Assembly: GCA_020444545.1 (NCBI GenBank)
Contig: JAHLKT010000010.1
Coordinates: 1 to 45,657 of the forward strand
Source of the DNA: Desulfarculaceae bacterium
Lineage (GTDB): Bacteria > Desulfobacterota > Desulfarculia > Desulfarculales > Desulfarculaceae
Length of the DNA: 45,657 nt
Reading direction: 5' to 3'
The notes beneath the pieces are model-generated. The model did not search any database and was not told where the DNA came from. It saw nothing but the letters and a program-made list of their open reading frames with translations. The position numbers and the translations under genes were made by a program. This document shows, in pieces, positions 24,868 to 41,843 of this stretch; positions within the stretch are counted from its first letter, which is position 1, and each line of letters opens with the position of its first letter.

Positions 24868-24885
24868 TGCCTCGCCGTTCGCGGT

Positions 24886-25443
24886 TCAGGGGACGATGAT
24901 GACCATCAGGCATTTGACGTCCTGGTCGCCGGCCGCCACTCCGTAATGCTCGATGCCGGAGTCGAAGTAGATGCAGTCGCCGGTCTCCACCAGGTACTCG
25001 TCGGTGCCGTGGGTGAAATGCATGGTCCCCTCCAAAACGAACATCATCTCCTCGCCGTCGTGCCGAAACACCGCAGTGTCGGGATTGTCGGCCGGGATGG
25101 TGAGCAGGTAGGGCTCCATGCGTTTGTGGGGATACTTGTGGGCCAGGGTCTCGTAGGAGTAGCCGAAGGAGGTGCCGTTGCGGGCCATGGGCCGCCGCTC
25201 GGCGGACTTGACCAGGGAGGCGGAGATTCTCTCCTGGCTCTCGCCCAGGAGCTCGGAAAGGGTGGCTCCCAAGGCCTTGGCGATGACGACCAGGGTGGAC
25301 AGGGGGGGAGATTTGGGGGAGTTCTCCAGCTTGGACAAATAGCCCTTACTGAGGCCGGTTTTCTGGGCCAGGTCTTCCAGGGAAAGACCGGCCGCCTTGC
25401 GCATCCCGCGAAGGTTTTTCCCTATCTCTTTTTCTTCCAGCAC
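24886..25443 (-). CDS. XRE-family regulator with C-terminal cupin domain
   Basis: This 185-residue protein starts at GTG 25443 behind TAGGAGC. An HTH domain covers about residues 10-65 (LRGMRKAAGLSLEDLAQKTGLSKGYLSKLEN). A cupin sensor domain covers about 110-185, with FRHDGEEMMFVLEGTMHF and CIYFDSGIEHYG. Such regulators bind a small molecule in the cupin barrel and control the adjacent catabolic operon. It is the first gene of the - strand operon. An inverted repeat 130 bases upstream is a likely operator. Confidence 0.92.
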   Translation of the reverse strand: MLEEKEIGKNLRGMRKAAGLSLEDLAQKTGLSKGYLSKLENSPKSPPLSTLVVIAKALGATLSELLGESQERISASLVKSAERRPMARNGTSFGYSYETLAHKYPHKRMEPYLLTIPADNPDTAVFRHDGEEMMFVLEGTMHFTHGTDEYLVETGDCIYFDSGIEHYGVAAGDQDVKCLMVIIVP

Positions 25444-25519
25444 CTGTTGCTCCTAGCTCCGATCAGTCCGGGGAAACAACCGGACAAGGTCTCCCAAAAG
25501 GATACAATTGCAGCCAACG

Positions 25520-25548
25520 ATAATAAATAAATATGTAATATCAGTTAA
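25520..25548 (-). promoter_or_regulatory. Candidate sigma-70 promoter of the XRE/BKACE operon
   Basis: On the - strand there is TTAACT (25543-25548) and TATTAT (25520-25525) with a 17-base spacer, in an AT-rich island within GC-rich DNA. The predicted start is about 70 bases before the GTG of the XRE gene. Confidence 0.45.
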
Positions 25549-25574
25549 ATCCATTGGTTGCATGAATCAGCTAT

Positions 25575-25591
25575 GTTTCCTATATGGAAAC
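25575..25591. promoter_or_regulatory. Candidate operator: GTTTCC-N5-GGAAAC dyad
   Basis: A perfect six-base inverted repeat with five-base spacer TATAT lies just upstream of the proposed -35 of the XRE gene. The symmetry and position fit a dimeric XRE-cupin protein acting on its own operon. The rest of the 25444-25650 gap holds only AT-rich promoter sequence. Confidence 0.55.
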
Positions 25592-25650
25592 TCTAAGTTA
25601 ACCTCGGAGCGGATGTCAAGCCCCACCTGGTCGCGGGGCATTCGCCCGCC

Positions 25651-26907
25651 CTAGCCGCCGGAGGAATCCGGCGTTTCGCCGGCGGAGTCCTTGATCGGCT
25701 GCAAAACGGCCGCCACCAAAAGCTTGGTCGCCTGATCGATCTCTTCCATCTTGTCCGCGTCTGATGACTCCCGCACGATGAGCCAGCGCAGGGCCATGTG
25801 GCTGAAGGCTCCCAGGAACAAGTTGCGGAACACGCGGGAGTCCGCTTCCGGCCGGAACACGCCGGCTTCCTGGCCTTGGACGATAACGTCCTCTACCAGG
25901 CCGAAGTAGCGCTTGAAGGTGGCAAAGGATTTGGAACCGTAGAAGCGCGCGGTCAGCTGCAACTCCAGCAGGAAGACCTTCAGGAACTGCCGCTCCTGCA
26001 AAAAGCTGGTGTAGTGAAACCTGATCAGGCGCTTCAGGCGGCGCACCGGGTCCTTGATCTCGAAGGCGTCGGAGGCCTGCTGGAAGTAGCGCGAAAAATG
26101 CTCTTCCGGGATGGAGAGCAGCAGGTCTTCCTTGCTGTCGAAGTAATCGTAGACCGTGCCGTCGGCCACCTGGGCCAGCTTGGCGATCTCGGAGATCTTG
26201 GCCTTGTTGTAGCCTTTCTCGGCAAAGACTTGGATCGCGGCCTGGATGATGACGTTTCTTTTCTTGCCCCGGCTGGAAACCTGGGCGGGGGTGGGCAGGA
26301 GCATGTGCAGGCACAGGTCCGCGAGGTCCTCGAAGTCCTGCTCGCTGCTCTCCACCTCGCCGCTGCCCAGCTGGAGAACGCTCTCCATGTCCAGGGCGCC
26401 CAGCACCGCGTCGCGCATGAGGGTGAGCTTTACGTCGTCGCGGAAGACCTTTTCCCGTCTTCCCTGATCCAGGATGTCCATGAGGATGCCGGCGTACTCC
26501 CGGATGAGCTTGTAGGCCTCCGAGTCGTAGAAGTCTTGGGAAGAGCGGCATTCCAACAGGAGCAAACGGGCATAGCCGGCGTGGGCGTCGTTGAAGTGCA
26601 GGTGGAACCAGATCATCTTGCGAAGGCGGCTCACCGGGTCGGAGATGCCGGTCAGGTGGTCCTTGAGCTGGACCAAAACGTCGCGCAGACGCTCCTCGGG
26701 AATGGAGAACAGCAGGTCCTGCTTGCCCTTGAAGAACTGATAAATGCCCGAGTCCATCACGCCGGCCTTGACGGCGATCTCCGAAATGGAGGTTTCGGCG
26801 GGTCCCTTTTGGGACATGATCTCCTCGGCGGCGTCCAGAATGCGCTGGCGCTTTTCGGCCCTGCCGCCGGTTTCGGAAACTATGTACTTGGGCTTGTTCA
26901 TGGGCAT
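25651..26907 (-). CDS. Tandem double-TetR transcriptional regulator
   Basis: The 418-residue product (ATG 26907; GTG 26910 is also in frame) holds two complete TetR modules in one chain. The first HTH spans about residues 20-70 (ISEIAVKAGVMDSGIYQFF) and the second about 216-268 (ISEIAKLAQVADGTVYDYF). Both are followed by the same phrase, LL(F/L)SIPEE, and by parallel ligand-domain helices (DPVSRLRKMIWFH and DPVRRLKRLIRFH), so an internal duplication is clear. Normal TetR proteins are about 200 residues and dimerise, so this chain may act as a built-in dimer. It lies 28 bases after the acyl-CoA ligase stop, in the beta-oxidation operon it probably represses. Confidence 0.9.
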   Translation of the reverse strand: MPMNKPKYIVSETGGRAEKRQRILDAAEEIMSQKGPAETSISEIAVKAGVMDSGIYQFFKGKQDLLFSIPEERLRDVLVQLKDHLTGISDPVSRLRKMIWFHLHFNDAHAGYARLLLLECRSSQDFYDSEAYKLIREYAGILMDILDQGRREKVFRDDVKLTLMRDAVLGALDMESVLQLGSGEVESSEQDFEDLADLCLHMLLPTPAQVSSRGKKRNVIIQAAIQVFAEKGYNKAKISEIAKLAQVADGTVYDYFDSKEDLLLSIPEEHFSRYFQQASDAFEIKDPVRRLKRLIRFHYTSFLQERQFLKVFLLELQLTARFYGSKSFATFKRYFGLVEDVIVQGQEAGVFRPEADSRVFRNLFLGAFSHMALRWLIVRESSDADKMEEIDQATKLLVAAVLQPIKDSAGETPDSSGG

Positions 26908-26937
26908 CACCTACCGCTCCGCTCCCTGGCCCCCCCC

Positions 26938-28509
26938 TTAGCCATAAAGCTTTTTGATCTGTTGTTTGAGTATCTTTCCCGTGCCTCCCCGGGGGAGGTC
27001 CTGGACCACTTCGGCCTCCCGGAGCGCCTTGAAGTGGGCCATGTTATCACGGGTGAAATCCACGATGTCCTTGGCGGTCAGGCTGGCCCCGGGCTTGAGC
27101 ATCACCACCGCCTTGGGCACCTCGCCCCAGCGGTCGTCCTTTTTGCCGATGACCGCGCATTCCAGGATGTCGGGGTGGGAGTAGAGCACCTTTTCGATCT
27201 CCAGGGAGGAGATGTTCTCCCCTCCGCTGATGATGATCTCCTTGAGCCGGTCCTTGATGTAGAGCGAGCCGTCCTCGCCCATGGCCACCAGGTCGCCGGT
27301 GTGGTACCAGCCGCCCTCCATGGACTCGGCGGTGTCCTCGGGCTTGTTCAGATAGCCCTTCATCACCATGTCCCCGCGCACCAAGAGCTCGCCCACCGAC
27401 TCACCGTCCCAGGGCAGCGCCTCGCCCTGGGGGCCGGAGACCTTGAAGGTGACGCCGCACAGGGGGAAGCCCCAGGTCTCGTGGCAGCGGTGGCGCAGGG
27501 TCTCCTGGTCCAGGTCCGGGGGCAGCTCGGGCAGGGCGATGAGCGGGCAGGTCTCGCTCATGCCGAAGCCGCCGTGCACCGTACAGTCCAGGGCCTCCTC
27601 GGCCCGGGGGAACATGCCGGTGGGGGCCGGAGCCCCGCCGATGAGCACGTCGCGCAGGCTGCTCAGGTCGTACTCGCCCAGGTTGGGCAGCTCCAGAATG
27701 GCGGTGAGCATGGTGGGCACGATGTAGAAGCGGGTGACGCTTTCTTCCTGAACCAGGCGCAGCACGCCCTCGGCGTCGAACTGCTTCTGCATCACGTGGC
27801 AGCCGCCCTTGCCCACCAGGTAGTGGGGAACCCCCCAGCCGTTGACATGGAACAGGGGGATCAGGTGGAGTTGCACGTCGGTCTCGTAGATGGGCATGGA
27901 GGCCATGGCCGTGAGGGCGTGCAAATACAGGTTGCGGTGGGTGAGCAGCACGCCCTTGGGCGGCCCGGTGGTGCCGCTGGTGTAGAACAGCTCGGCCGGG
28001 TCGTCTTCCTCGAAGGGGAAGGTGAAAGGCTCGGCGGGCGGCCGGGGAGCGGATTGCTCCAGCAGCTCGTCGTAGGTGGCCCCGCACCAGGCGGGAGCGT
28101 TCTCGTCCTCCTCCAGCAAAAAGACGCGGCCCGCGGCGCTGCTGTTCTCCACAAAGGAGGCCACCTTGTCCACCAGGTTGGGATGCACCAGCAGGGCGGC
28201 CGGTTGGGCGTCCTGAAAGATGTATTCCAGGTCCTCGGGGCTCAGCCGGATGTTGAGCGGCAGGAGCACCGCGCCGATCTGGGGCACGCCGAAGTAGCAC
28301 TCCAACAGGCGGTGGCAGTTGTAGCCCAGGAAAGCCACCCGGTCCCCGGGCTTGATGCCCAGGCCCACCAGGGCGTCGCTCAGGCGCTCCACCCGCTGGC
28401 CGAACTGGGCGTAGCTCCATCTTTGGCCCCCGCAGACCACGGCGGTGCGCCGGGGAAACACGGTCAGGGCTCTTTCCAAAAAGCGTATGGGGGTAAGAGT
28501 GATGTTCAT
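26938..28509 (-). CDS. Acyl-CoA synthetase (AMP-forming), fatty or aryl acid ligase
   Basis: The start ATG 28509 begins MNITLTPIRFLERAL; the frame is open upstream only within the next gene. The 523-residue product has the AMP-binding motif YTSGTTGPPKGVLLTHRN near residue 174, YHTGDLVAMGEDGSLYIKDRLKEI near 405, and the C-terminal lysine in GGTGKILKQQIKKLYG. It activates a carboxylic acid to its CoA ester via the acyl-adenylate. Together with the acyl-CoA dehydrogenase, thiolase and hydroxyacyl-CoA dehydrogenase of the same operon it starts a beta-oxidation-type route. Chain length or aromatic nature of the substrate is not evident. Confidence 0.9.
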   Translation of the reverse strand: MNITLTPIRFLERALTVFPRRTAVVCGGQRWSYAQFGQRVERLSDALVGLGIKPGDRVAFLGYNCHRLLECYFGVPQIGAVLLPLNIRLSPEDLEYIFQDAQPAALLVHPNLVDKVASFVENSSAAGRVFLLEEDENAPAWCGATYDELLEQSAPRPPAEPFTFPFEEDDPAELFYTSGTTGPPKGVLLTHRNLYLHALTAMASMPIYETDVQLHLIPLFHVNGWGVPHYLVGKGGCHVMQKQFDAEGVLRLVQEESVTRFYIVPTMLTAILELPNLGEYDLSSLRDVLIGGAPAPTGMFPRAEEALDCTVHGGFGMSETCPLIALPELPPDLDQETLRHRCHETWGFPLCGVTFKVSGPQGEALPWDGESVGELLVRGDMVMKGYLNKPEDTAESMEGGWYHTGDLVAMGEDGSLYIKDRLKEIIISGGENISSLEIEKVLYSHPDILECAVIGKKDDRWGEVPKAVVMLKPGASLTAKDIVDFTRDNMAHFKALREAEVVQDLPRGGTGKILKQQIKKLYG

Positions 28510-28522
28510 GTGCCTTGCCCTG

Positions 28523-29386
28523 CTACCGCTTGGAGTAATCGTGCCAGCCCCGGCCGGTCTTGCGGCCCAGGTGGTTGGCGTTGACTTTCTGCTTGAGCAC
28601 CGGCCGGGGCCGGAAGCGCTCGCCATAGGCCTCGAAGAGAATCTCCTGCACCCAGAGGTTCAGGTCGTTGCTGGTCAGGTCCATGAGGGTGTAGGGGCCC
28701 ACGGGATGACCCAGGCCCAGCTTGCAGGCGATGTCCACGTCCTCCACCGAGGCCACGCCCTCCTCGACCAGGCGGTTGGCCTCGATCCACATGGCGTGCA
28801 GCAGGCGGTTGACCGCGAAGCCGGGCACGTCCTTGACCCGAATGGGGGTCTTGCCGATGAAGCGGCAGGCCTCGCTCATCTGGGCCACCGCCTCCTCGCC
28901 GGTCTCCAGGCCGGGGATCACCTCCACCAGCTTCATCACCGAGGCCGGCGAGAAGAAATGGGCCCCCAGGAAGCGGGAGCGCCGCTCCGGGCCGAGGCCG
29001 GCGGCCAAGAGGGTGATTGGCAGGGAGGAGGTGTTGCTGGCCAGCAAGCAAGTAGGAGGGCATACCTGGTCAGCGCCCCGCCAAATCTCCCTCTTGACCG
29101 CCAGATCTTCGAACACCGCCTCGATCACCAGCTCGGCCCGGGCCAGGGGGGCCAGCTCCCCGGCGGGCGCGATGCGCTCCAGGGCGGCGTCCTTGGCCCC
29201 GGCCTCCAGGCGGCCCTTGGCGATGGCCTTGTCCAACACCGCGCCCAGGCGGTCCTTGCCCTTTTGGGCGGCCTCCAGGTGTTGGTCGATCAGCTCCACC
29301 CTGCAGCCGGCCAGGGCGAAGCACAGGGCGATCTCCGCGCCCATCATGCCCGCCCCGATCACGCCGATGTTTTTAAGCTCGCTCAT
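28523..29386 (-). CDS. 3-hydroxyacyl-CoA dehydrogenase (Hbd/PaaH-like)
   Basis: This 287-residue enzyme has the NAD motif GVIGAGMMGAEIAL at residues 8-21, SNTSS near 115 and LGAHFFSPASVMKLVEVI with the catalytic His. The C-terminal domain carries KDVPGFAVNRLLHAM and the final GRKTGRGWHDY. The size and motifs are those of Hbd/PaaH enzymes oxidising 3-hydroxyacyl-CoA to 3-ketoacyl-CoA. It lies 13 bases before the ligase and 32 bases after the thiolase in the same - strand operon. A second member of this family at 23908-24867 belongs to a different subgroup. Confidence 0.93.
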   Translation of the reverse strand: MSELKNIGVIGAGMMGAEIALCFALAGCRVELIDQHLEAAQKGKDRLGAVLDKAIAKGRLEAGAKDAALERIAPAGELAPLARAELVIEAVFEDLAVKREIWRGADQVCPPTCLLASNTSSLPITLLAAGLGPERRSRFLGAHFFSPASVMKLVEVIPGLETGEEAVAQMSEACRFIGKTPIRVKDVPGFAVNRLLHAMWIEANRLVEEGVASVEDVDIACKLGLGHPVGPYTLMDLTSNDLNLWVQEILFEAYGERFRPRPVLKQKVNANHLGRKTGRGWHDYSKR

Positions 29387-29418
29387 GCTGTCCGCTCTCG
29401 CTTTCCGGTCCGCCGGCC

Positions 29419-30630
29419 TCAGGCCACCTTGATGAGGCAGGCGTCGGCCTGGGCCAGACCCCCGCAGATGGAGGCCAGGGCGTAGCCGCCGCCCCGCCGC
29501 CGCAGCTCGTACATCAGGGTCATGATCAAGCGGGCCCCGCTGGAGGTGTTGGGGTGGCCGATGGCTATGGCGCTGCCGTTGATGTTGGTCTTGGCGCGCA
29601 CCGCCTCGGTCTTGGCCGCGTCCTTGCCGCCCAGCATCAGGGTGGAGACCAGGGGCACCGCGGCGAAGGCCTCGTTGATCTCCATGACCGCCACGTCGTC
29701 CAGGCCGATGCCCCCCAGCTCCAGGGCCTTGAGGCTGGCGTAGGCCGGGCCCTCGGGCATGCGGTTGGGGGCGATGGCGATGGAGGACATGGACACGATC
29801 TCGGCCAGGGGCTCCAGGCCCAGGGCCTCGGCCCGCGCCCGGGTCATGAACAGGATGGCCGTGGCCCCGTCGTTGAGTCCCGGCGCGTTGCCCGCGGTGA
29901 TGCCCTGGCAGCCGTAGATGCCCGGCAGCTTGGCCAGCTTTTCCAGGCTCACGTCCGGGCGGTACTGCTCATCGATATTGAGCACCCGCTCCTCGCCCTT
30001 GGGCTGGGGCAGGCTCAGGGTCATCATTTCCTCTGCAAACTTGCCCGCCTCCCAGGCAGCCCCGTAGTTCTGGTGGCTGCGCTGGGCCCACTCGTCCTGC
30101 TCCTGGCGGCTGACGCCGTACTCGGCGGCCACGTTGTCCGAGTCCACGGACACGGGGTTGAAGTCCTTGTAGCCCAGGGCATAGAGGGGGTCTTCCATGT
30201 TCACGTCGCCCAGGCGGAAGCCCTTCCACCTAAGGCCACGCACGATCAGGGGCTCCTGGCTGAAGGAGGTGGCCCCACCGCCGATGGCCGAGCTGATCTC
30301 GCCGGCCATCATGGCCCGGCAGCCCAGGTGCACCGCGCTCATGGCCGAAACGCAGGCCTTGTCCAGGGCCAGAGAGGGGGTTTCGGCGGGCAGCCCGGCC
30401 TTCAGCAGGGTCTGGCGGGCCGCCACGGGGGTGTAAACGTCCTTGCAGACGGAGGTGTCGCCAACCCCCCAGAAAACCTCATCAACTTCCTTGCCGTCCA
30501 CGCCGGTCCGGGCCAGCACCTCGCGCATGGGCAAGGCGCCCAGGTCGAAGTAGTCAAACTCGCGCAGGGCGCCGCAGTATTTGCCGAATGGGGTTCTGGT
30601 GGCCCCAACGATCACGATATCCTTGTACAA
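29419..30630 (-). CDS. Thiolase (acetyl-CoA acyltransferase)
   Basis: This 403-residue protein probably starts at TTG 30630, with GGGAAG upstream and no in-frame ATG nearby. The nucleophile is Cys93 in LDKACVSAMSAVHLG, and the other catalytic residues are His359 in IGHPNTSSGAR and Cys389 in CGGLAQADA. It cleaves 3-ketoacyl-CoA with CoA in the degradative direction. The position between the acyl-CoA dehydrogenase and hydroxyacyl-CoA dehydrogenase genes supports this. An enoyl-CoA hydratase gene is missing from the operon. Confidence 0.92.
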   Translation of the reverse strand: MYKDIVIVGATRTPFGKYCGALREFDYFDLGALPMREVLARTGVDGKEVDEVFWGVGDTSVCKDVYTPVAARQTLLKAGLPAETPSLALDKACVSAMSAVHLGCRAMMAGEISSAIGGGATSFSQEPLIVRGLRWKGFRLGDVNMEDPLYALGYKDFNPVSVDSDNVAAEYGVSRQEQDEWAQRSHQNYGAAWEAGKFAEEMMTLSLPQPKGEERVLNIDEQYRPDVSLEKLAKLPGIYGCQGITAGNAPGLNDGATAILFMTRARAEALGLEPLAEIVSMSSIAIAPNRMPEGPAYASLKALELGGIGLDDVAVMEINEAFAAVPLVSTLMLGGKDAAKTEAVRAKTNINGSAIAIGHPNTSSGARLIMTLMYELRRRGGGYALASICGGLAQADACLIKVA

Positions 30631-30691
30631 TGTCTGAGCTTCCCGGTGTTAAGGTGTCGTCGTCCTTGGTGTTTTGCCTGTGGGGCCGCCC

Positions 30692-31837
30692 CTAGGCCAG
30701 CAGATCGTTGGCGATTATGGAGCGCTGAATCTGATTCGTGCCTTCATAAATTTGAGTAATCTTGGCGTCGCGCATCATGCGCTCCAAGGGGAACTCCTGG
30801 GTGTAGCCGTAACCGCCCAGGAGTTGCACCGCGTCGGTGGTCACGCTCATGGCCGCGTCCGAGGCGCTCCACTTGGCCATGGAGGCCAGCTTTTTGATCT
30901 CGCGCGAATCGGGCTCCTGGTCGATGAGGGAACAGGCCCTATAGACCATGGTGCGGGCCAGCTCCACCTTGAGGGCCATCTCGGCCACCATCCACTGCAC
31001 GCCCTGGAAGTTGCTCAGCGGCTGCTTGAACTGCTCGCGCTCCTTGATGTAGGCCACTGCATGGTCCAAGGCGCCCTGGGCGATGCCCAAGGCCTGGGCC
31101 CCCACCAAGGGGCGGGTGTAATTGAAGGTTTTCATTAAGGTATAGAAGCCGCTTCCCGGCTCGCCCAGGAGGTTGGCCTCGGGCACCCAGCAATCCTCGA
31201 ACACCAGCTCGCGGGTATCGGAGCCCCGGATGCCCAGCTTGTGCTCCTGCTTGCCCACCGTGAAGCCCTCGGTGTCCTTGGGCACCACCAACAGGCTGAT
31301 GCCCCGGTGGCCTTTGGCCTTGTCCGTATAGGCCACCACGGTGGTGTAGTCGGCCACCCCGCCGTTGGTGATGAATATCTTGCTGCCGTTGATCAGATAG
31401 CCGCCGTCCTGCTTCACCGCGGTGGTGCGGATGCCGGTCACGTCCGAGCCGGCTCCCGGTTCGGTGATGGCGCAGGCTCCGAGGGACTCTCCTTCAGCCA
31501 TGGGCCGAAGGAAATTCTGTTTCTGCTCCTCGTTGCCGCCCAGGAGAATGGGGTCCGTGGCCAGCCCCTGGGTAGTCAGGATCACCGAGGTGGAGGCGCA
31601 GGAGCGGGCCACTTCCTCCACCACCAGGGCCATGGCCAGCATGCCGGCGCCGGCTCCGCCGTACTCCTCGGGGATGTGTACGCCGAGTAGGCCGTTTTCT
31701 TGTAATATACGCTTGTTATCCCAGGGAAACTCGCCGTTGGCGTCCACGGAGGCCGCCCGGGGCGCGAACTCGTTCTCGCTGATTTTCCGGATGCTGTCGC
31801 GTAGAAGAATCAACTCCTCGGAAAATTGAAAGTCCAT
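30692..31837 (-). CDS. Acyl-CoA dehydrogenase
   Basis: This 381-residue flavoprotein has the family signatures [20 protein letters not shown] near residues 116-135 and [20 protein letters not shown] near 343-362. The catalytic base is Glu365 in [10 protein letters not shown], the position of short- and medium-chain acyl-CoA dehydrogenases. It makes the 2,3-enoyl-CoA and passes electrons to ETF. It is the first gene of the beta-oxidation operon, with a promoter just upstream. GAGGATC precedes the ATG. Confidence 0.94.
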
Positions 31838-31878
31838 TTTTCAGATCCTCGTGGATGTTTAGGGCTAGTCAGGAGGTA

Positions 31879-31908
31879 GTTATAGCAATCCGCTAAAATG
31901 TGTGTCAA
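31879..31908 (-). promoter_or_regulatory. Sigma-70-like promoter of the beta-oxidation operon
   Basis: On the - strand TTGACA (31903-31908) and TATAAC (31879-31884) are separated by 18 bases. The transcript would begin near 31872, about 35 bases before the acyl-CoA dehydrogenase ATG. No clear TetR dyad was found at the promoter. Confidence 0.6.
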
Positions 31909-32186
31909 CAAAAATAATAACTGAATAAAATTCTAAAATGGCAGTGCCGTTGGATGGGCTTGGTGAGGGGGGGTGGTGTTTAAGTGAGAGAATATACTGT
32001 ATAAATAATTGGTAGGCCAGGGCGGCAACTCTCTGTAGGCTGAAATTGCGTTCGGAATTGGGCCTGAAAAATTATCTAAGCTTGGGCTGGAGCGGGGCAA
32101 GGGCCCACGGACAGGCGAAGCGCTCCGGGATTGCCGGATGCGTTAATGCCGGAACTGGGAGGGGTAGGGACTGAACGGAATGGAAC

Positions 32187-32214
32187 AGGCGGTTAGCGAC
32201 TCCGCTAACCGCCT
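32187..32214. terminator. Perfect 12-base stem-loop beside the tRNA remnant
   Basis: AGGCGGTTAGCG and CGCTAACCGCCT flank a four-base loop. On the + strand GATAATTTT follows, a weak T-run. It lies 9 bases from the CCA end of the tRNA remnant, where it may once have ended the tRNA transcript on the - strand. Confidence 0.6.
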
Positions 32215-32222
32215 GATAATTT

Positions 32223-32272
32223 TGGTAGGCCGGACGGGATTTGAACCCGTGACTTCCACCGTGTGAGGATGG
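32223..32272 (-). pseudogene. Truncated tRNA-Val(CAC) 3' half, probable att site remnant
   Basis: On the - strand the segment reads as tRNA positions 27-76. It has a five-pair anticodon stem (CCATC with GGTGG, one wobble), anticodon CAC in loop CTCACAC, a five-base variable loop AAGTC, a perfect T stem ACGGG/CCCGT with loop TTCAAAT, acceptor strand CCGGCCT, discriminator A and encoded CCA. The D arm and the 5' acceptor strand (expected AGGCCGG) are absent; the upstream DNA is AT-rich and unrelated. Integrases of many islands recombine in the anticodon-to-3' part of tRNA genes and leave this kind of copy. Confidence 0.8.
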
Positions 32273-32333
32273 CAATCACACAAGACCTTAAAAACATTAC
32301 TATAACAATAAGATACAAAGCACAAAAAGCACG

Positions 32334-32354
32334 ATAGCCTACAAATAGCCTACA
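32334..32354. repeat. Short direct repeat, two copies of ATAGCCTACA
   Basis: Two identical 10-base copies (32334-32343 and 32345-32354) are separated by one base. They lie between the tRNA remnant and the integrase stump, where arm-type integrase binding sites are often found. The function is only suggested by position. Confidence 0.5.
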
Positions 32355-32400
32355 TTTTCTCATGGCTTGAGCTCGTGGCGACCGGTCCATAGAGGGATGG

Positions 32401-32511
32401 TCACGACCTTTTTGCCTCAAGCAATGCCCCCAGGCTTTCCATGGCCGACTCGGACTGCTCTTGGTCCAGATGGCTGTACCGGAGGAACACGGCCAGGGTC
32501 TTGTGGCCTGT
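32401..32511 (-). pseudogene. C-terminal remnant of a tyrosine recombinase (integrase)
   Basis: On the - strand the frame ending at TGA 32401-32403 encodes GHKTLAVFLRYSHLDQEQ and then about 18 more residues. This matches the last part of phage-type integrases, in which LGHKTLxxTxRYxHL contains the catalytic tyrosine. The match begins abruptly at the GHK motif; a stop codon lies three codons upstream (32518-32520) and none of the Arg-His-Arg catalytic region is present. It is therefore a stump, not a working gene. Its stop faces the tRNA-Val remnant 128 bases away, the usual arrangement at an att junction. Confidence 0.75.
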
Positions 32512-32579
32512 TGGCGGTCATGACGACAGAGCGGCGCGAGGGGCGCAAAAACTCTGGGACTTAGACTCCTAATTTGACC

Positions 32580-32609
32580 TGTTATATGCCAAGCTCATCG
32601 CGCTATAAT
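32580..32609 (+). promoter_or_regulatory. Possible promoter for the first Tm-1-like gene
   Basis: A perfect -10 box TATAAT lies at 32604-32609, with only a poor -35 (TGTTAT, spacer 18). It would start transcription near 32616, about 57 bases before the ATG at 32673. The ribosome-binding site there is also weak (AAAGAG). Confidence 0.35.
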
Positions 32610-32672
32610 CTTCGTGGTCTCTAGGGGGAATAGCGCTTCGACCACCGGTACCCGCCAGTCGAAAAAGAGCTG

Positions 32673-33848
32673 ATGATTACCCAGGCCGCAATAGCAGTAA
32701 TGGGCACCCTTGACTCCAAGGGTGATGAACATCTTTTTTTAAAGGAGGGCATCGAGCGGAGGGGTTATCGGGCGCTGACCATCAATGTGGGCACCCGCAC
32801 CGCTCCGGCCTTTACCCCGGACCTGGACCTGCGACCCACTCGGGTGGAAAGCAGGGACCAGGCCATAGCCGCCACTATCCAGCGGGCCCGCCATGCCCTG
32901 GCCGAGCTTTTCGCTCGGGGCCATATCCGCGGCGTCATCTCCGCCGGCGGGGGCAGCGGCACCCACTTGGTCACCAGCGTCATGAAGGTGCTGCCCCTGG
33001 GGGTGCCCAAGGTGATGGTGTCCACCGTGGCCGCCCATGACATGGCCCAGGTGGTGGGCACCAAAGACATCACCATGATGCACAGCGTGGGCGACCTGCT
33101 GGGGGTCAACTCCCTCACCGGTCTGATCCTGGACCGGGCCGCGGGCGCCATCTGCGGCATGGTGGCCCGGGATTGGCAGGGGACGGCGGGCAAACGGCGC
33201 ATCGGCTTGAGCATGTTCGGGTTCATCACCCCAGCGGCCGAGGCAGTCAAGGAACGGCTGGAAGCCCATGGTTACGAGGTAATCGCCTTTCACGCCAACG
33301 GCATCGGCGGTTTGGCCCTGGAGGAGTTGGCCGCCGAGGGCCGCTTCGACGCCATCCTGGACCTGGCGCCCCACGAATTGGCCGACACCCTCAAGGACGG
33401 CTACTGCAGGCTCATCGGCCCGGGCCGTCTGGAGCCCTGCCCTGGGAACGGCATTCCTCGCCTAGTGGTGCCCGGCGGCCTGGACTGCGCGGTGCTGGAG
33501 TTCACCCGCGACACGGTGCCCCCTGAATACGCCCACCGCAAGATATTTTTTTATGACTTCCGCTCGGCGGTGCGTTTGAGCCGGGAGGAAACTCTCTTTC
33601 TGGCCAAGCAACTGGGAGACAAGCTCAACCGCGCCGTTTCACCGATCAAGGTGCTCATCCCCTTGGGAGGATGGTCCGCGGCCGATGGTTCCGGCGCTCC
33701 CTTGCACGACTCGGCTTTGAGCCGTGCCTTTATCGACCAATTGCGCGGAGATCTGCGTCCGGAGATCGCGGTGGAAGAGGTGGAGCATCACATCAACGAC
33801 CCCGCCTTTGCCGCCGTGGCGGCGCTGGCCATGATCGGAATGCTCTAG
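32673..33848 (+). CDS. Tm-1-like ATP-binding domain protein (UPF0261), copy 1
   Basis: This 391-residue protein begins AAIAVMGTLDSKGDEHLFLKE, the typical opening of UPF0261. Further family segments are GVISAGGGSGTHLVTSVMK near residue 90, LGVPKVMVSTVAAHD near 110 and a C-terminal domain with VLIPLGGWSAADGSG. The N-terminal half is related to the tomato Tm-1 resistance protein, whose domain binds ATP; the bacterial function is not established. It has no membrane or signal segment. It converges on the ubiD gene and has a paralog at 41844-43085 inside the phenylphosphate-synthase operon, which hints at a shared role in aromatic carboxylation. Confidence 0.85.
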   Translation: MITQAAIAVMGTLDSKGDEHLFLKEGIERRGYRALTINVGTRTAPAFTPDLDLRPTRVESRDQAIAATIQRARHALAELFARGHIRGVISAGGGSGTHLVTSVMKVLPLGVPKVMVSTVAAHDMAQVVGTKDITMMHSVGDLLGVNSLTGLILDRAAGAICGMVARDWQGTAGKRRIGLSMFGFITPAAEAVKERLEAHGYEVIAFHANGIGGLALEELAAEGRFDAILDLAPHELADTLKDGYCRLIGPGRLEPCPGNGIPRLVVPGGLDCAVLEFTRDTVPPEYAHRKIFFYDFRSAVRLSREETLFLAKQLGDKLNRAVSPIKVLIPLGGWSAADGSGAPLHDSALSRAFIDQLRGDLRPEIAVEEVEHHINDPAFAAVAALAMIGML

Positions 33849-33892
33849 CCCTTTAGTCATCAGGGGATATTTTTTTCACTGGCCGCAAGTGA

Positions 33893-33924
33893 ACGGCGGA
33901 CCCGCCCTGGGGCGGATCCGCCGT
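33893..33924. terminator. Terminator hairpins between convergent genes
   Basis: The main stem pairs ACGGCGGA with TCCGCCGT and continues as CCGCC/GGCGG after one mismatch, with a four-base loop. Just before it, CCCT/AGGG followed by seven T (about 33849-33877) is a plausible + strand terminator, and TTCACT/AGTGAA (about 33876-33893) with an A-run forms a - strand counterpart. Together they separate the Tm-1-like gene from ubiD. Confidence 0.6.
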
Positions 33925-33952
33925 GATTGTCTAGTTAAAGTTTCCGGGTCGC

Positions 33953-35362
33953 TTACTCGAATCCCAGCTCCGACCAGCGCGCTTCGACCTTCTTGACCAC
34001 ATCGGGGTCGAGCGCGATGGGGATGGGCTTGTCCTTCCAGTCATAGGGTATGGTGGCGTCCAGCAGCAGGCGGCCGGTGATGTCGCGGGTGCTGATGGGC
34101 AGCGAGGGGTCCAGAGGAGTGGAGCGTCCCCGCTTGATGACCTGGCTCCGATTGGGCTGGAAACGGAAGGCCAGGGCGTACATGACCCGGGGGATGTCCC
34201 AGGGGTCGATGTCCTCGTCCACCACGATGACGGTCTTGAGGCCGTAGGCCCCCATCTCCGTGGAGATGGCCGCGGTGAGCACCTGGTCGGCGTGGCCGGG
34301 GTACATCTGCTTGACCGAGATGATGGCCAAAAAGCGGCCCGAGCCTTCGGGCGGGCAGTAGACCGAACGGATGCCGGGTATCTTCATGGCCTTGAGCTGC
34401 TGCCACAGGGTGGCCCCATAGGACAGGGCCATGGTCATGTGGGTGTCGGTGACCGCCCGCCCCACGGTGGTTCCCCACATGATGGGGTTGTCGCGGTGGG
34501 TGATGCATTTGACGTCGATGAAGTTGCGCGGATCGGTGCCCACCCCGGAGTAATAGCCGGTGTACTCGCCGAAGGGCCCTTCCTCCATGAACTTCTCGGC
34601 GTCGACCTCTCCCTCCACCACGATCTCGGCATGCGCCGGGATGGGCAGGTCCACCGTTTCACCAGGCACCACCTCCACCGCCTGGCCCCTTATGGCGCCG
34701 GCCACGTCGTACTCGCTGGTGAAGGCCGAGAGGCGGGCCGCTCCCAATATGAACAGCAAGGGGTCGCAGCCCACGATGGAGGCCACGGGCATGGGCTTGC
34801 CCAGGGCCTGGTACTTCTTGAGCATTATGTCGGCGTGCTTGCCCTTGATGAACTGGGTGCCCAGCTTGTCCTTGCCCAACAGCTGGGAGCGGTAGGTGCC
34901 CAGGTTGACCCAGCCCGTCTCAGGATCCTTGGTGATGATGAAGTGGGCGGTGCCGAAGAAGCGGCCGCCGTCCAGGGGATACCACTTGGGCACCGGGAAC
35001 TTGTACAGGTCGACATCGTCGCCGGTGAGGATGTTCTGCTTGCAGGGGGCCGAGTCTCGATCCACCTCCACCGGCGGCAGCAGATCATCGCCCACCTCAA
35101 CCCATTTTTCCATGATTTGGACCAGGGAGGAGCTCCTGGGCATGCCCATGATCACCGCCAGCCGTTCGGCGGTGGTGCACACGCTGGTTATGACCGGGGT
35201 GTCGTAGTCCTTTACGTTTTCAAACAACAAGGCGGGGCCGCTCTTCTCCTCGTTGAGCTTGGCGATGTGGGAAAGCTCAAGGTCCCAATCCACCTCGGCT
35301 TTAATTCGGTGCAGGATGCCTTCCTGCTCACACGCGGCAATAAAATCCCTCATGTCCTTCAT
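33953..35362 (-). CDS. UbiD-family prenyl-FMN decarboxylase/carboxylase
   Basis: This 469-residue cytoplasmic enzyme has the UbiD start FIAACEQEGILHRIKAEVDWDLELSHIAK, the central SIVGCDPLLFILGAARL and EIVVEGEV segments, and FGEYTGYYSG. These lie in the region of the cofactor-binding Arg and acidic catalytic residues. UbiD enzymes use prenyl-FMN for reversible (de)carboxylation of aromatic acids. The phenylphosphate carboxylase subunits PpcA and PpcB belong here, as do 4-hydroxybenzoate and gallate decarboxylases. UbiX and LpdD genes that would supply its cofactor are 9 kb away in the same locus. AAGGAGGGAG precedes the ATG, and a LysR gene lies upstream on the same strand. Confidence 0.92.
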   Translation of the reverse strand: MKDMRDFIAACEQEGILHRIKAEVDWDLELSHIAKLNEEKSGPALLFENVKDYDTPVITSVCTTAERLAVIMGMPRSSSLVQIMEKWVEVGDDLLPPVEVDRDSAPCKQNILTGDDVDLYKFPVPKWYPLDGGRFFGTAHFIITKDPETGWVNLGTYRSQLLGKDKLGTQFIKGKHADIMLKKYQALGKPMPVASIVGCDPLLFILGAARLSAFTSEYDVAGAIRGQAVEVVPGETVDLPIPAHAEIVVEGEVDAEKFMEEGPFGEYTGYYSGVGTDPRNFIDVKCITHRDNPIMWGTTVGRAVTDTHMTMALSYGATLWQQLKAMKIPGIRSVYCPPEGSGRFLAIISVKQMYPGHADQVLTAAISTEMGAYGLKTVIVVDEDIDPWDIPRVMYALAFRFQPNRSQVIKRGRSTPLDPSLPISTRDITGRLLLDATIPYDWKDKPIPIALDPDVVKKVEARWSELGFE

Positions 35363-35448
35363 AGAAACTGCTCCCTCCTTGTCGCCCTCGGGCGGGTTAA
35401 ACGTGCAAAAGCACCTCCCCTAATGGGGCGTTTTGTACAATCGCCTTA

Positions 35449-35478
35449 AATATGAGGAAGATAGGCCCGCAAAGTCAA
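35449..35478 (-). promoter_or_regulatory. Candidate promoter of ubiD
   Basis: On the - strand TTGACT (35473-35478) and CATATT (35449-35454) are 18 bases apart. The transcript would start near 35442 and carry an 80-base leader with two small hairpins (35403-35414 and 35417-35428). The weak -10 fits an activator-dependent promoter. Confidence 0.5.
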
Positions 35479-35500
35479 CTCATATAATATTATGCACACT

Positions 35501-35515
35501 ATAACTATAAGTTAT
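35501..35515. promoter_or_regulatory. Candidate LysR-type box upstream of ubiD (T-N11-A)
   Basis: ATAACTATAAGTTAT has arms of six bases and contains T-N11-A. Its centre, 35508, is about 66 bases upstream of the predicted ubiD start, the usual LysR recognition position. A similar dyad stands on the other side of the LysR gene. The remainder, 35516-35744, is AT-rich and shows nothing else recognisable. Confidence 0.6.
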
Positions 35516-35744
35516 ATTAAGGCAGTTAATTTACGCGATCGTAAGCTTGAGCTGCTCTGGTATCTGCTTAAAATACATAAAAAAATATTGCAATTCAATT
35601 TGGGAAGGCAACCGTAGTCAGCGTTGAATAGTGTTGGACATTAAATGTGAAAGCATAAATTGGATTGTTATAAGCAGGTGACGATTCGCTGGCGGGGCGG
35701 GGTGGCGCGGGCGGTTTCTGGTCTGGGATGGTTGGGAGCCAGGG

Positions 35745-36629
35745 TCAAGCCTGGTCCTGATAGAGCAGATTCAAGAAGGCTTTTGCCGGCCGCGACAACT
35801 CGTGGCCCTTTAGAACGGCGGTGCAGATATCCAGGCTGGGCTGCTCCCCCTGCAAGGTAAAGGTGGCTATGCGGCCGGCCCGAATCTCCGCTTCCGTCCC
35901 GGAGCGGGTCAAAAAGGAAATGCCCTGTCCCTGGGCCACCTGCTCCTTGATCACCTCGGCATTGCTGGTTTCAAACACGATGATGGGCTTCGCGCGGTGG
36001 CTCCGGTAAAGGTCGGCCACCACCTTGCGGGTGCCCGAGCCCTTTTCCCGCATGATGAAGGGTTGGGAGGCCATGGCTTTGAAGGGAACATTTTTTTGGC
36101 GGGCCAAGGGATGCTCGGGGGCCACGATGGGTATCAGCACTTCGTTGCGGAAGGATTTAAACTCCACCCGCCGCACCCGGCCCGGAGCCGCGATCACCGC
36201 CACCTCGATGTCCAGGGACCAGAGGCGCCTGGCCATCTCCCGGGAACTGCCCTCGATCAAAACAATGTTTACCAAAGGATAGTTGCTTTGGAAGCGGGCC
36301 AAAAGGGGCGGCATTATGGTGCGGGCATAGGTGCGGGCGGTGCCCAGTTTGAGGGTGCCCTTTTTGACCAATCTCATCTGTTTAATGGCCTGAGTGGCCT
36401 CCTCTTGCAGCTTGAATATCTTGCGGGCGTGGACCAGTAAAACCTCGCCCGGCTCGGTGAGCACCAACTTTTTGCCCAGGCGAGCGAAAAGCTTCACTCC
36501 TAAGTCTTCTTCCAGGTTGCGGATCTGTGCGCTGACCGCAGGCTGGGTTACGTTAAGTTTTTCCGCTGCCTGGGAGAAGTTCAGGGCCTGCGCGGCGTGG
36601 AAAAAAGTGTGTAACTGGTTCAAATTCAT
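35745..36629 (-). CDS. LysR-family transcriptional regulator
   Basis: This 294-residue protein has the N-terminal winged HTH (MNLNQLHTFFHAAQALNFSQ onward, AAEKLNVTQPAVSAQIRNLE) at residues 1-60 and a LysR effector-binding domain from about 90 to 290. It stands between ubiD (same strand, downstream) and the divergent phenylphosphate-synthase operon. Dyads of the T-N11-A type lie before both targets. A role as activator of aromatic carboxylation genes in response to a phenolic inducer is likely, but the ligand is unknown. Confidence 0.92.
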   Translation of the reverse strand: MNLNQLHTFFHAAQALNFSQAAEKLNVTQPAVSAQIRNLEEDLGVKLFARLGKKLVLTEPGEVLLVHARKIFKLQEEATQAIKQMRLVKKGTLKLGTARTYARTIMPPLLARFQSNYPLVNIVLIEGSSREMARRLWSLDIEVAVIAAPGRVRRVEFKSFRNEVLIPIVAPEHPLARQKNVPFKAMASQPFIMREKGSGTRKVVADLYRSHRAKPIIVFETSNAEVIKEQVAQGQGISFLTRSGTEAEIRAGRIATFTLQGEQPSLDICTAVLKGHELSRPAKAFLNLLYQDQA

Positions 36630-36705
36630 GGCTTGATATTAGGCCAGCCTCTAAGTAATGTCAACCTGTAAAATTAAGCGTGAAGATGTAACCACATGGA
36701 AATAC

Positions 36706-36741
36706 ATGATCTAATACAATTAGATCATAAGTTAAACTTAT
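36706..36741. promoter_or_regulatory. Two abutting perfect dyads upstream of ppsA, candidate LysR sites
   Basis: The first dyad (36706-36728) has 10-base arms ATGATCTAAT and ATTAGATCAT around three bases. The second (36727-36741), ATAAGTTAAACTTAT, is a seven-base-arm palindrome with T-N11-A. A weak TTGATG/CATGAT promoter pair (36764-36769, 36788-36793) would place the start near 36800, about 66 bases from the second dyad. The rest of the 36630-36982 gap is AT-rich, with one further 10-base palindrome, CATGATCATG, at 36788-36797. Confidence 0.65.
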
Positions 36742-36982
36742 AAGAACAATAATTTTATTTGGCTTGATGTTTGGCAAAGCCATGAGCCATGATCATGACG
36801 TAATTCAATCCGCCATTTGAAATAGGTAAATCATGCAGCGGACGGTTGGCTCGAATATTTTCATTCTTACGCCGGCTCTTTGGTTGTTGAGTAATGGAAA
36901 GATTTTTGGCGGTTTCCCACGGTCCTAAACAAAGGGGGCACCCCTTTTTTCCGAGGCATTCTATTCAGAGGGAGATAGGGCT

Positions 36983-38830
36983 ATGGGCGAAAGTAAATTG
37001 AAGTTTCCCGACCCGCACGAGGTAGAAAAGATTCCTGGTACCGAGGGTTGGGAGCGAATGTTCCCCTATCAGTATCCGTTCGTGACCGACGACCCGGAAC
37101 GCGAACAGTACGAAAAGGGGATGTTCTGGTTTTATGACGGGCTGCATTACCCTGAGCCTATTTATCCCTTTGACATAATTTGGGACGAGGCCTGGTATCT
37201 GGCCCTGTCCCAGTTCAACACCCGAATCTTCGCCGTGCCTCCGGTATATGGCGTGGATCACCGCATCATCAACGGTTACATCTACATTTCGCCGGTGCCG
37301 GTGACCGACCCCGCCGAGATCGAGGCCCGGGTGGGCCATTTCATGGAGAGGGCCGGCTACTACTACGAGAATTGGAACAAACTCGAGGGGCAGTGGGTCA
37401 AGAAGCTCGAGGGGATCATCTCCGACCTGGAGGCCCTCAAAATCGATCCCCTGCCCGAGCTGGAAGACAAGTCGGTGGTCATGGAGGGCTTGGGCAAGTC
37501 CAAGGGCTATGACCTGCTCCATGCCTACGACAAGCTGATCGATCTGGGCCTGCTCTGCTGGCAGTACCACTTCGAGTTCTTGAACCTGGGCTACGCGGCC
37601 TACGTGACCTTCCTGGACTTCTGCCAAAAAACCTTCCCGGACGTCCCCCTGCAGCGGGTCACCCAGATGGTCTCGGGCATCGACGTGATCATGTACCGCC
37701 CGGACGAGGAGCTCAAGAAGCTGGCCCGGGCGGCGGTGGATCTAGGGGTGGATGACATCGTCAATTCCGGCAAGAAATTTGTCGAGGTAAAGGCCGAGCT
37801 GGAGAACTCGCCAAACGGCAAGGAATGGCTCCAAGCCTTCGAAAAGGCTCGCTATCCTTGGTTCTGGACCTCCACGGGCACCGGTTGGTACCACCACGAC
37901 AAATCCTGGAACGACGACCTGGACATCCCCCTGGCCTCCCTGTGCATCTACGTGGACAAGGTCAAGGCGGGCAAGCCGATTGAGCGGCCCATGGACGATG
38001 TCATCAAGGAGCGCGACCGCATCACCGACGAGTACCGCGCCTTGCTGCACGACGAGGAGGCCAAGGCCGGCTTCGAACAGCTGCTGGGCACCGCCCGCAC
38101 CGTGTTCCCCTATGTCGAGAACCATCTGTTCTATGTGGAGCATTGGTTCCATTCGGTGTTCTGGAACAAGATGCGCGAGGTGGCGGCCATTCTCAAGGAC
38201 TACGGGTTCATCGAGGAAATTGAGGATGTCTGGTATCTCAAGCGGGCCGAGATCAAGGAGGCCTTGTGGGACGTGGTCACCGCCTGGGCCACCGGCGTCA
38301 AGCCGCGCGGCCCCCAGGTGTGGCCGCAGGAAATCGCCTGGCGCAAGGGGGTAATGGACAAGTTCCGCGAGTGGACTCCCCCCGCGGCGGTGGGCACCGC
38401 GCCCGAGGTGATCCAAGAGCCTTTCACCGTGGTCCTGTGGGGCGTCACCAACGACTCCCTCAAGGCCTGGGCCGAGGTGGATGCGGCCGGCGACCCGGAT
38501 TCGGTGAACCAGCTCACCGGCTTCGCGGGCAGCCCCGGCGTGGTCGAGGGCAAGGCCAGGGTGTGCCGCACCGTGGCCGAGATAGGCCAGCTGCAAGAGG
38601 GCGAAATTTTGGTGGCGCCCACCACCTCGCCCTCCTGGGCCCCGGCTTTCCAAAAGATACAAGCGGCGGTCACCGACGTCGGCGGGGTCATGTGTCACGC
38701 GGCCATCGTCTGCCGGGAGTACGGCATGCCCGCGGTGGTGGGCACCGGCCACGGCACCAGCATTATCAAGACCGGCATGACCCTCAAGGTGGACGGCGGC
38801 ACCGGCAAGGTGATCATTGTAGAACGTTAA
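36983..38830 (+). CDS. ppsA: Phenylphosphate synthase subunit A-like protein (PEP-utilizing mobile domain)
   Basis: This 615-residue protein (about 70 kDa) ends in the phosphohistidine swivelling domain of PEP synthase-type enzymes. TDVGGVMCHAAIVCREYGMP contains the likely phosphorylated His572, and FAGSPGVVEGKARV precedes it. The first 500 residues do not look like the PEP synthase ATP-grasp or PEP-binding barrel but match the phenylphosphate synthase alpha subunit in size and layout. In Thauera the homolog transfers the beta-phosphate of ATP to phenol through this His. The ATP-grasp partner follows at 38930. The substrate could be phenol, a cresol or catechol. A good ribosome-binding site, GAGGGAGAT, precedes the ATG. 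Confidence 0.88.
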   Translation: MGESKLKFPDPHEVEKIPGTEGWERMFPYQYPFVTDDPEREQYEKGMFWFYDGLHYPEPIYPFDIIWDEAWYLALSQFNTRIFAVPPVYGVDHRIINGYIYISPVPVTDPAEIEARVGHFMERAGYYYENWNKLEGQWVKKLEGIISDLEALKIDPLPELEDKSVVMEGLGKSKGYDLLHAYDKLIDLGLLCWQYHFEFLNLGYAAYVTFLDFCQKTFPDVPLQRVTQMVSGIDVIMYRPDEELKKLARAAVDLGVDDIVNSGKKFVEVKAELENSPNGKEWLQAFEKARYPWFWTSTGTGWYHHDKSWNDDLDIPLASLCIYVDKVKAGKPIERPMDDVIKERDRITDEYRALLHDEEAKAGFEQLLGTARTVFPYVENHLFYVEHWFHSVFWNKMREVAAILKDYGFIEEIEDVWYLKRAEIKEALWDVVTAWATGVKPRGPQVWPQEIAWRKGVMDKFREWTPPAAVGTAPEVIQEPFTVVLWGVTNDSLKAWAEVDAAGDPDSVNQLTGFAGSPGVVEGKARVCRTVAEIGQLQEGEILVAPTTSPSWAPAFQKIQAAVTDVGGVMCHAAIVCREYGMPAVVGTGHGTSIIKTGMTLKVDGGTGKVIIVER

Positions 38831-38837
38831 TCCCGCG

Positions 38838-38864
38838 CCCGGCCGCCCCGGCGGGGCGGCCGGG
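38838..38864 (+). terminator. Strong hairpin between ppsA-like and ppsB-like genes
   Basis: A perfect 12-base stem (CCCGGCCGCCCC and GGGGCGGCCGGG) with a three-base loop starts eight bases after the subunit A stop. There is no T-run. It probably protects the subunit A message or reduces read-through into subunit B. Confidence 0.5.
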
Positions 38865-38929
38865 TTACGCCATGCTTGCCGTGGACAAGGCGCCCCTGGC
38901 CTTTTGCGGCGAGCCATCACGGAGCACGC

Positions 38930-40018
38930 ATGAGCCGAACTCAACCCCTGGTTTGCTGGTTTCAAGAGTGCCACAAGGACTCGGTGCCCCTGGTGGGCGG
39001 CAAGAACGCATCCTTGGGCGAGTTGATCAACGCGGGCATCCGGGTCCCTCCGGGCTTTGCGGTCACCACCGAGGCCTATCGGCGCTTTATCAGCCAGGGC
39101 GGGGTGGACCGCGAGATCAAAGACGCTTTGGCCGGGTTGGACCATGAGGACTCCGCCGCCTTGGACCAGGCCAGCTCCCGCATCAGAGGCTTGATCGAAT
39201 CCTGCCCCATCTCCACCGAGCTCGAAGACCACATCGCCGATTACTACCGCCGGTTGTCCAAGATCTGCGGACTTCCCGCGTCTCCGGTGGCGGTGCGTTC
39301 CAGCGCCACCGCCGAGGATCTGCCCGGGGCCAGCTTCGCCGGCCAGCAGGATACCTACCTGTGGATCCGCGGGGCCGAGGGGGTGCTGGAGCACGTGCGT
39401 AAGTGCTTCTCCAGTCTTTTCACCGCCCGGGCCATCGCCTACCGCATCAAGATGGGCTTTGCCCAGGAAGAGGTGGCCCTGAGCGTGGGCATCCAAAAGA
39501 TGGCCAACGCATTCACCGCCGGGGTCATGTTCACCCTCAATCCGGCCAACGGCGACCGCTCAATGATCGTCATCGATTCCAATTTTGGTTTCGGGGAGTC
39601 GGTGGTTTCCGGCGAGGTCACCCCGGACAACTTCCGGGTGGACAAGGTGACCATGGAGATCGTGGACAAGACCATCTCCAAGAAAGAAGTCTACTACACC
39701 CTGGAGCCGGCCGAGCACTGTTCGCGCAAATTCACTCTTCCCAAAGAGCGGCAGATGTCCCAGTCCACCATCGACAAGGACGTGCTCGAGCTGGCCCGCA
39801 TGGGCAAGATCATCGAACAGCATTACCGATGCCCCCAAGACATAGAGTGGGCGGTGGATAAAGACATGCCTCAGACCGGCAGCGTGTTCATTTTGCAGAG
39901 CCGGCCGGAAACGGTCTGGAGTTGCAAGTCGTCGGACAAGCCGCCCGAGACGGGGAAGAAGAAGACGGCCATGGATCATATTTTGTCCAATCTCATGATG
40001 GGCAAGAAGCTCTCTTAA
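38930..40018 (+). CDS. ppsB: Phenylphosphate synthase subunit B-like protein (ATP-grasp)
   Basis: The start ATG 38930 follows GGAG at five bases; the longer frame to 38876 lacks support. The 362-residue product is the N-terminal ATP-binding part of PEP synthase alone. It has LVGGKNASLGELINAGIRVP near residue 20, AVRSSATAEDLPGASFAGQQ near 118 and ILQSRPETVWS at about 337-347. Subunit B of phenylphosphate synthase has this size and supplies pyrophosphoryl transfer to the His of subunit A. Gene order (swivelling domain first, ATP-grasp second) is the reverse of PEP synthase, so this is not a broken PEP synthase. Confidence 0.88.
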   Translation: MSRTQPLVCWFQECHKDSVPLVGGKNASLGELINAGIRVPPGFAVTTEAYRRFISQGGVDREIKDALAGLDHEDSAALDQASSRIRGLIESCPISTELEDHIADYYRRLSKICGLPASPVAVRSSATAEDLPGASFAGQQDTYLWIRGAEGVLEHVRKCFSSLFTARAIAYRIKMGFAQEEVALSVGIQKMANAFTAGVMFTLNPANGDRSMIVIDSNFGFGESVVSGEVTPDNFRVDKVTMEIVDKTISKKEVYYTLEPAEHCSRKFTLPKERQMSQSTIDKDVLELARMGKIIEQHYRCPQDIEWAVDKDMPQTGSVFILQSRPETVWSCKSSDKPPETGKKKTAMDHILSNLMMGKKLS

Positions 40019-41842: not shown

Positions 41843-41843
41843 C

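Follow-up and report, generated by a model that had tools for sequence, protein, structure and literature searches.

A displaced tRNA-Val(CAC) 3′ half marks one end of a probable phenol-degradation island in a Desulfarculaceae genome

How did the 3′ half of a tRNA-Val(CAC) gene come to lie beside the last codons of an integrase gene, and do the genes around it owe their place to a mobile element? The question is raised by the genome of a Desulfarculaceae bacterium (GCA_020444545.1), in which the window analysed here, 45,657 nt read on the forward strand, is the whole of contig JAHLKT010000010.1 (contig C10 of genome G000, an assembly of 11 contigs and 4.38 Mb; other G-numbers denote the compared relatives). 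ARAGORN predicts no complete tRNA gene within this window. A preliminary description made from the sequence alone had taken the tRNA piece and the integrase stump for a decayed island boundary. We conclude that window positions 32223-32511 are very probably the far end (attR side) of an island of ~19.5 kb, inserted by a tyrosine integrase in the 3′ half of tRNA-Val(CAC) and carrying a predicted phenol pathway as its cargo. The boundary comprises the following features:

Window 32186-32215, no strand assigned: original tRNA-Val terminator hairpin, CAGGCGGTTAGC...GCTAACCGCCTG, now beyond the displaced fragment
Window 32223-32274, minus strand: displaced tRNA-Val(CAC) 3′ half, the att core, an exact 52-bp direct repeat of G000:C2:2840-2891
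Window 32334-32359, minus strand: two direct repeats GTAGGCTAT at 11-bp spacing, putative arm-type integrase sites, with a partner set at G000:C2:2744-2780
Window 32404-32511, minus strand: C-terminus of a tyrosine integrase, 36 residues (TGHKTLAVFLRYSHLDQEQSESAMESLGALLEAKRS) holding the RYSHL tyrosine, truncated upstream

A genome search with window 32150-32520 as query located an intact tRNA-Val(CAC) at G000:C2:2840-2914, with which the fragment shares 52 bp, all identical; within the window the match to tRNA-Val(CAC) measures 55 bp at 98% (E = 5e-18). The fragment begins on the 5′ side of the anticodon stem, ends with CCA and includes the anticodon stem-loop, the T-arm and the acceptor end. 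For anticodon-centred (“A” class) attachment sites the shared segment is expected to span the anticodon stem-loop (PMC4383910), an expectation that fits a fragment beginning just before the anticodon stem and ending at CCA. The preliminary description was right that the tRNA piece is real and that it represents the segment copied by integrases, to which the exact 52-bp identity adds weight, with the amendment that the anticodon stem-loop is covered besides the T-arm and acceptor end; the lack of a matching tRNA gene, which it had named as counter-evidence, is not what was found. Given the join of contig C10 to contig C2 that is argued for below, the fragment lies on the 3′ side of the intact tRNA-Val in the same orientation. 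Read in the sense of the tRNA, the intact gene runs into C2:2839 and down to 1, and the fragment runs into window 32222 and downwards; by this geometry the island starts at window 32275, reaches the end of the contig and takes in whatever links that end to C2:1. The proposed island boundary holds, in that the two tRNA-Val copies are direct repeats bracketing an island with matched arm repeats.

The short direct repeat that had been remarked between the fragment and the integrase tail proved to be the GTAGGCTAT pair at 11-bp spacing (in plus-strand form, ATAGCCTAC at window 32334 and 32345). The 26-mer that holds both copies has just two occurrences in the 4.38 Mb, one at each island end and each ~60 bp inward of the tRNA sequence, the fragment in one case and the intact tRNA-Val in the other; it is absent from 29 relatives with <=3 mismatches allowed, a reversed control also giving zero; a third, imperfect copy of GTAGGCTAT adjoins the C2 repeat set. 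Paired and spaced in this way, the repeats look like the arm-type sites of an integrase. The two tRNA copies are also followed by different terminators. Hairpins similar to the CAGGCGGTTAGC hairpin that now follows the fragment stand after the intact tRNA-Val in G004, G005, G007 and G016, whereas the intact gene in G000 C2 ends in a different hairpin, AAGGAGTTAGC...GCTAACTCCTT, which adjoins the arm repeats. A conserved hairpin after the fragment and a different one after the intact gene imply that an element replaced the 3′ half of the tRNA together with its terminator.

The integrase stump is likewise real: a six-frame comparison matched it to a 416-aa integrase of G010 (80% identity) and to a partial integrase of G008 (77%), both genomes being members of the family and both integrase frames matching PF00589. 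Pfam gave no match to the stump alone, for which 36 aa is too short. Its stop codon faces the arm-type repeats, the order being stop codon, repeats and att core. The similarity ends upstream of TGHKT, so the integrase gene was probably cut by a deletion. All PF00589 matches of the G000 genome lie outside the sequenced parts of the island, which hold only the 36-aa remnant; with all but the last 36 codons deleted, the island is fixed in place unless an integrase acts in trans. Of the integrase-bearing island that the preliminary description had proposed to look for between the tRNA copies, the other end and the island itself exist, the integrase is decayed, and the sequenced parts contain no intact one. 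Downstream of the stump's best integrase relative, in G010:C290:44000-62999 (L210) at 8850-9320, TCTACTCCAT repeats stand at 11-bp spacing, and the same stretch contains a terminator and an apparent tRNA-Asp 3′ fragment.

The gene block to the right of the fragment, from 32275 to the contig end, lies inside the element inserted at tRNA-Val(CAC), as the preliminary description had supposed for the flanking genes in general. Its genes, and those at the other end on C2, are (families assigned by Pfam and NCBIfam):

Window 32673-33848, plus strand: UPF0261 (Tm-1-like) protein
Window 33953-35362, minus strand: beta subunit of phenylphosphate carboxylase, UbiD family (TIGR02724; score 506 bits, cut-off 469)
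Window 35745-36629, minus strand: LysR-type regulator
Window 36983-38830, plus strand: PpsA-like subunit of phenylphosphate synthase, with a PEP-utiliser mobile domain and ~70% identity to Aromatoleum homologues
Window 38876-40018, plus strand: phenylphosphate synthase PpsB-like subunit (PPDK_N)
Window 40190-41842, plus strand: AMP-forming acyl-CoA synthetase, from its context likely a 4-hydroxybenzoate-CoA ligase
Window 41844-43085, plus strand: second UPF0261 protein
Window 43087-43632, plus strand: NUDIX hydrolase
Window 43643-44314, plus strand: CBS-domain protein, likely PpsC-like, an assignment from domain and context only
Window 44704-45291, plus strand: UbiX flavin prenyltransferase
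Window 45323-45657, plus strand: start of HcrB (4-hydroxybenzoyl-CoA reductase beta subunit), running off the contig end into a collapsed repeat
G000:C2 from position 1, in order: end of HcrA, ARMT1-like phosphatase, third UPF0261 gene (C2:1390-2598), arm repeats, terminator, intact tRNA-Val

The gene families predict an anaerobic pathway from phenol to benzoyl-CoA. Phenol would be converted to phenylphosphate by Pps and then to 4-hydroxybenzoate by a UbiD/UbiX-type carboxylase; the ligase would form 4-hydroxybenzoyl-CoA, from which Hcr would yield benzoyl-CoA. For the last enzyme, the start of HcrB and the end of HcrA are present and the middle is missing from the assembly; the best match of the G006 HcrA homologue among solved structures is 1rm6, which we take to be the Thauera 4-hydroxybenzoyl-CoA reductase. 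For the phenylphosphate carboxylase alpha subunit present in Thauera (TIGR02723), no protein of the genome reaches the cut-off, the best score being 241 bits against 565. The island contains three divergent UPF0261 genes, of which the first two also accompany the cluster in G006 and G011.

The order of the contigs was established by comparison. The right end of C10 lies in hcrB and has its end sequence in common with the left end of C4, and the left end of C2 lies in the end of hcrA and is common with the left end of C6 (the ends concerned are C10 3′, C4 5′, C2 5′ and C6 5′; window 45323-45657); such a pattern is expected when a repeat present in two copies collapses into one, leaving two ways in and two ways out. 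The ~3.3-kb repeat holds the rest of hcrB, hcrC and hcrA, the sequence resuming at G000:C2:1. The cluster is colinear in three relatives, G006, G011 and G008, where the start of HcrB and the end of HcrA lie 3.3 kb apart, and in G006 an ARMT1-like gene follows HcrA as it does in G000 C2. In G001, which is without PpsA, the homologues of C4 and C6 are on one contig, C28, ~3.5 kb apart. The colinearity in the relatives and the linkage on G001:C28 together indicate that C4 pairs with C6 and C10 with C2, and the alternative pairing (C10 to C6, C4 to C2) was rejected on the same gene order and on G001:C28; the predicted join of C10 to C2 rests on this order and on the exclusion of its rival. Elsewhere the G000 assembly lacks an hcrA as similar as would be expected (best 42%), which fits the hcr repeat having been left out. 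The island is thus window 32275-45657, the unassembled ~3.3-kb hcr repeat and C2:1-2839, or 13.4 + 3.3 + 2.8 = ~19.5 kb, of which the ~3.3 kb is estimated from relatives. Within the unassembled ~3.3 kb the two hcrBCA copies must hardly differ, although their flanks do (~84% nt, 81-82% aa); the hcr sequences suggest that gene conversion may have taken place between the island genes and a resident copy.

The distribution of the cargo is patchy. PpsA (E < 1e-40) was found in 6 of the 60 genomes, G000 included, and in one of seven congeners, G006. There the colinear cluster (L169 = G006:C1:1005000-1024999, 11960-13102) lies ~5 kb from a tRNA-Arg(CCG) that has a different, 340-aa integrase directly beside it, with ~4 kb between integrase and cargo. 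A tRNA-Arg 3′ duplicate was not found beyond the G006 cluster, where only a similar terminator hairpin occurs (G006:C1:995554), so that the G006 copy is tRNA-linked but not delimited, and not a proven island. Recent transfer of the cargo between the G000 and G006 lineages was tested with four-fold sites and is unsupported: identity is 59-82% for the cargo, 66-83% for core genes and 57-83% for core and flanking genes taken together, and cargo divergence so close to core divergence does not indicate recent exchange. The GC content of the cargo, 0.62, is slightly below that of its neighbours (0.64-0.68) and equal to that of another stretch of the genome.

To the left of the fragment the picture is different. 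In G005 the tRNA-Val and its terminator are followed directly by homologues of window 17226 down to 8820, and in G000 a further 15 kb (window 17275-32184) intervenes between the conserved terminator and this block; it is made up of an ABC-transporter and beta-keto-acid block (17275-25443), located elsewhere in G001, G005, G006 and G013, and of a fatty-acid oxidation block (~25650-31840). Except for the block 8820-17226, none of the left-flank proteins of the window is found beside tRNA-Val in the relatives. The 15 kb is an unrelated change, inserted or rearranged. A second tRNA-Val island to the left was considered and is unsupported, the window containing no second tRNA-Val fragment, including near 17.2 kb, the start of the block shared with G005. 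The suggestion that the flanking blocks were delivered by the element is therefore correct for the right block and not for the left, since the conserved terminator and the G005-type block stand there. Comparison with relatives did not show the fragment to be a fixed feature of them, the outcome that had been named as adverse; the tRNA-Val site differs among them, and G005 is without the insert.

These observations can be combined in a simple scheme. The chromosomal tRNA would have recombined with the attP of the element, which would have given a new tRNA 3′ half and its own terminator, completing the gene now on C2, while displacing the old 3′ half with its terminator to the opposite end of the island, which lies in the window. 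The integrase gene would have occupied this far end and pointed at the att core, arm-type sites lying on both sides, and a later deletion would have removed all but its last 36 codons. It is likely that the lost integrase brought the cargo in as one unit, although an element already degraded might instead have acquired the cargo afterwards.

In its full form, this last alternative holds that the att pair and the integrase belonged to an ordinary prophage or island which the phenol cluster joined later, possibly at the very moment the integrase was lost; we regard this account as rather unlikely. The integrase is cut ~160 bp from the first cargo gene, the same cluster stands in G006 beside a different tRNA and a different integrase with ~4 kb in between, and G001 has a homologous left end (84%, 171 bp) without PpsA, all of which would be in keeping with late entry, but around the cargo, which comes within ~150-310 bp of both arm regions, we noticed no further pair of repeats such as a later insertion would have left. 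That the cluster is instead ancestral to the genus and vertically inherited, merely relocated to tRNA-Val by rearrangement, with the fragment an unrelated old insertion, seems to us improbable: the synonymous divergence of the cargo from G006 equals that of core genes, and other rearrangements have occurred beside tRNA-Val, but the vertical reading needs losses in G001-G005 and G007, and the cargo sits exactly between two matched sets of att core and arm repeats. Short pseudogene pieces of tRNAs do occur, yet a chance or degenerate duplicate arising with no integrase involved is hardly credible here, being refuted by exact 52-bp identity over the segment that integrases copy, in the right orientation, with matched arms, an integrase tail and a swapped terminator.

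An island inserted as a unit by a tyrosine integrase would be of a familiar kind. Islander describes tRNA-gene-targeted islands as an intact tRNA and a displaced 3′ fragment with an integrase ORF, over 2-200 kb (PMC4383910). The G000 island resembles these in its intact tRNA regenerated by the element, the displaced fragment downstream in the same orientation with the island between, the tyrosine integrase at one end and the core over the anticodon stem-loop, and its ~19.5 kb is within the size range; it differs in having only a 36-residue integrase remnant and in being split over two contigs, and with a remnant only, Islander's integrase filter would probably miss it. In Geobacter metallireducens an aromatics island of 300 kb has been delimited by composition and absent orthologues (PMC1924859). 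It shares with the G000 island the genes for phenylphosphate synthase and carboxylase and has tRNA genes, a pseudo-tRNA and integrase genes nearby (PMC1924859), whereas the G000 island is ~19.5 kb, with ends placed to the base and a compact phenol-to-benzoyl-CoA set. Within the literature covered, which was mostly open access, the Geobacter case was the only relevant one for a phenol cluster in a tRNA island; the G000 island is a tRNA-targeted catabolic island of a known kind, with the Geobacter island as the closest published parallel found. The clusters of Thauera and Aromatoleum are similar in that PpsA is ~70% identical to that of Aromatoleum, UbiD fits the phenylphosphate carboxylase beta model and Hcr, going by the 1rm6 match of the G006 homologue, is probably of the Thauera type; they differ in that G000 is without an alpha subunit at the cut-off and has hcr and three UPF0261 genes within its phenol cluster. 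Here the edge of an anaerobic phenol-degradation island is placed to the base in a family of sulfate reducers, and the locus suggests how the phenol trait can become patchy within a genus.

The same tRNA gene is occupied in G001, where an element of 41 kb with an intact integrase lies between the tRNA-Val(CAC) (~C9:58600-58675) and a fragment near C9:100150-100203. As in G000, the integrase adjoins the displaced fragment and converges on it, repeats are present at both ends (GTACACACC, at 11-bp spacing), and the element has its own terminator; unlike the G000 island, it has an intact integrase, different repeats, more than twice the length and no PpsA. Beyond the G001 fragment the sequence is 84% identical over 171 bp to the left end of the G000 island, including the AAGGAGTTAGC hairpin and GTAGGCTA repeats, and this homologous end implies that an element related to that of G000 sat in the G001 tRNA-Val, with a second element stacked on top. 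On another contig, G001:C13 (L177), the last 29 bp of a tRNA-Val gene stand at 8622-8694 together with a terminator of the CAGGCGGTTGGC type; the older G001 element probably had its far end here before it decayed.

A 9-bp direct repeat pair (at least 8/9 matching) at 11-bp spacing is found at +54 to +70 from the tRNA end in 7 of 21 tRNA-Val(CAC) 3′ flanks, each with a different sequence, the flanks having been collected by similarity search and not as a random sample. Spacings of 10, 12 and 13 give 1, 0 and 0 such pairs, and shuffling predicts 0-8% per locus; the displaced G000 fragment, as expected, has no such pair on its chromosomal side. To judge from these flanks, tRNA-Val(CAC) is probably a recurrent integration hotspot for elements with different integrases. 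More speculatively, and with a little less than an even chance of being right, the gene may serve the family as a standing port for metabolic modules, used by many unrelated integrases, each element bringing its own tRNA 3′ end, terminator and 11-bp-spaced arms at +54 to +70; the phenol module would then move between ports (Val here, Arg in the sister species G006) and become fixed once its integrase is deleted. Paired 11-bp-spaced repeats and a swapped terminator can reveal tRNA islands after integrase loss, which integrase-dependent finders would miss. The flanks with such pairs include those of G001, G002, G008, G013, G014 and G017, and the pairs are a possible signature of arm sites that has no need of an intact integrase.
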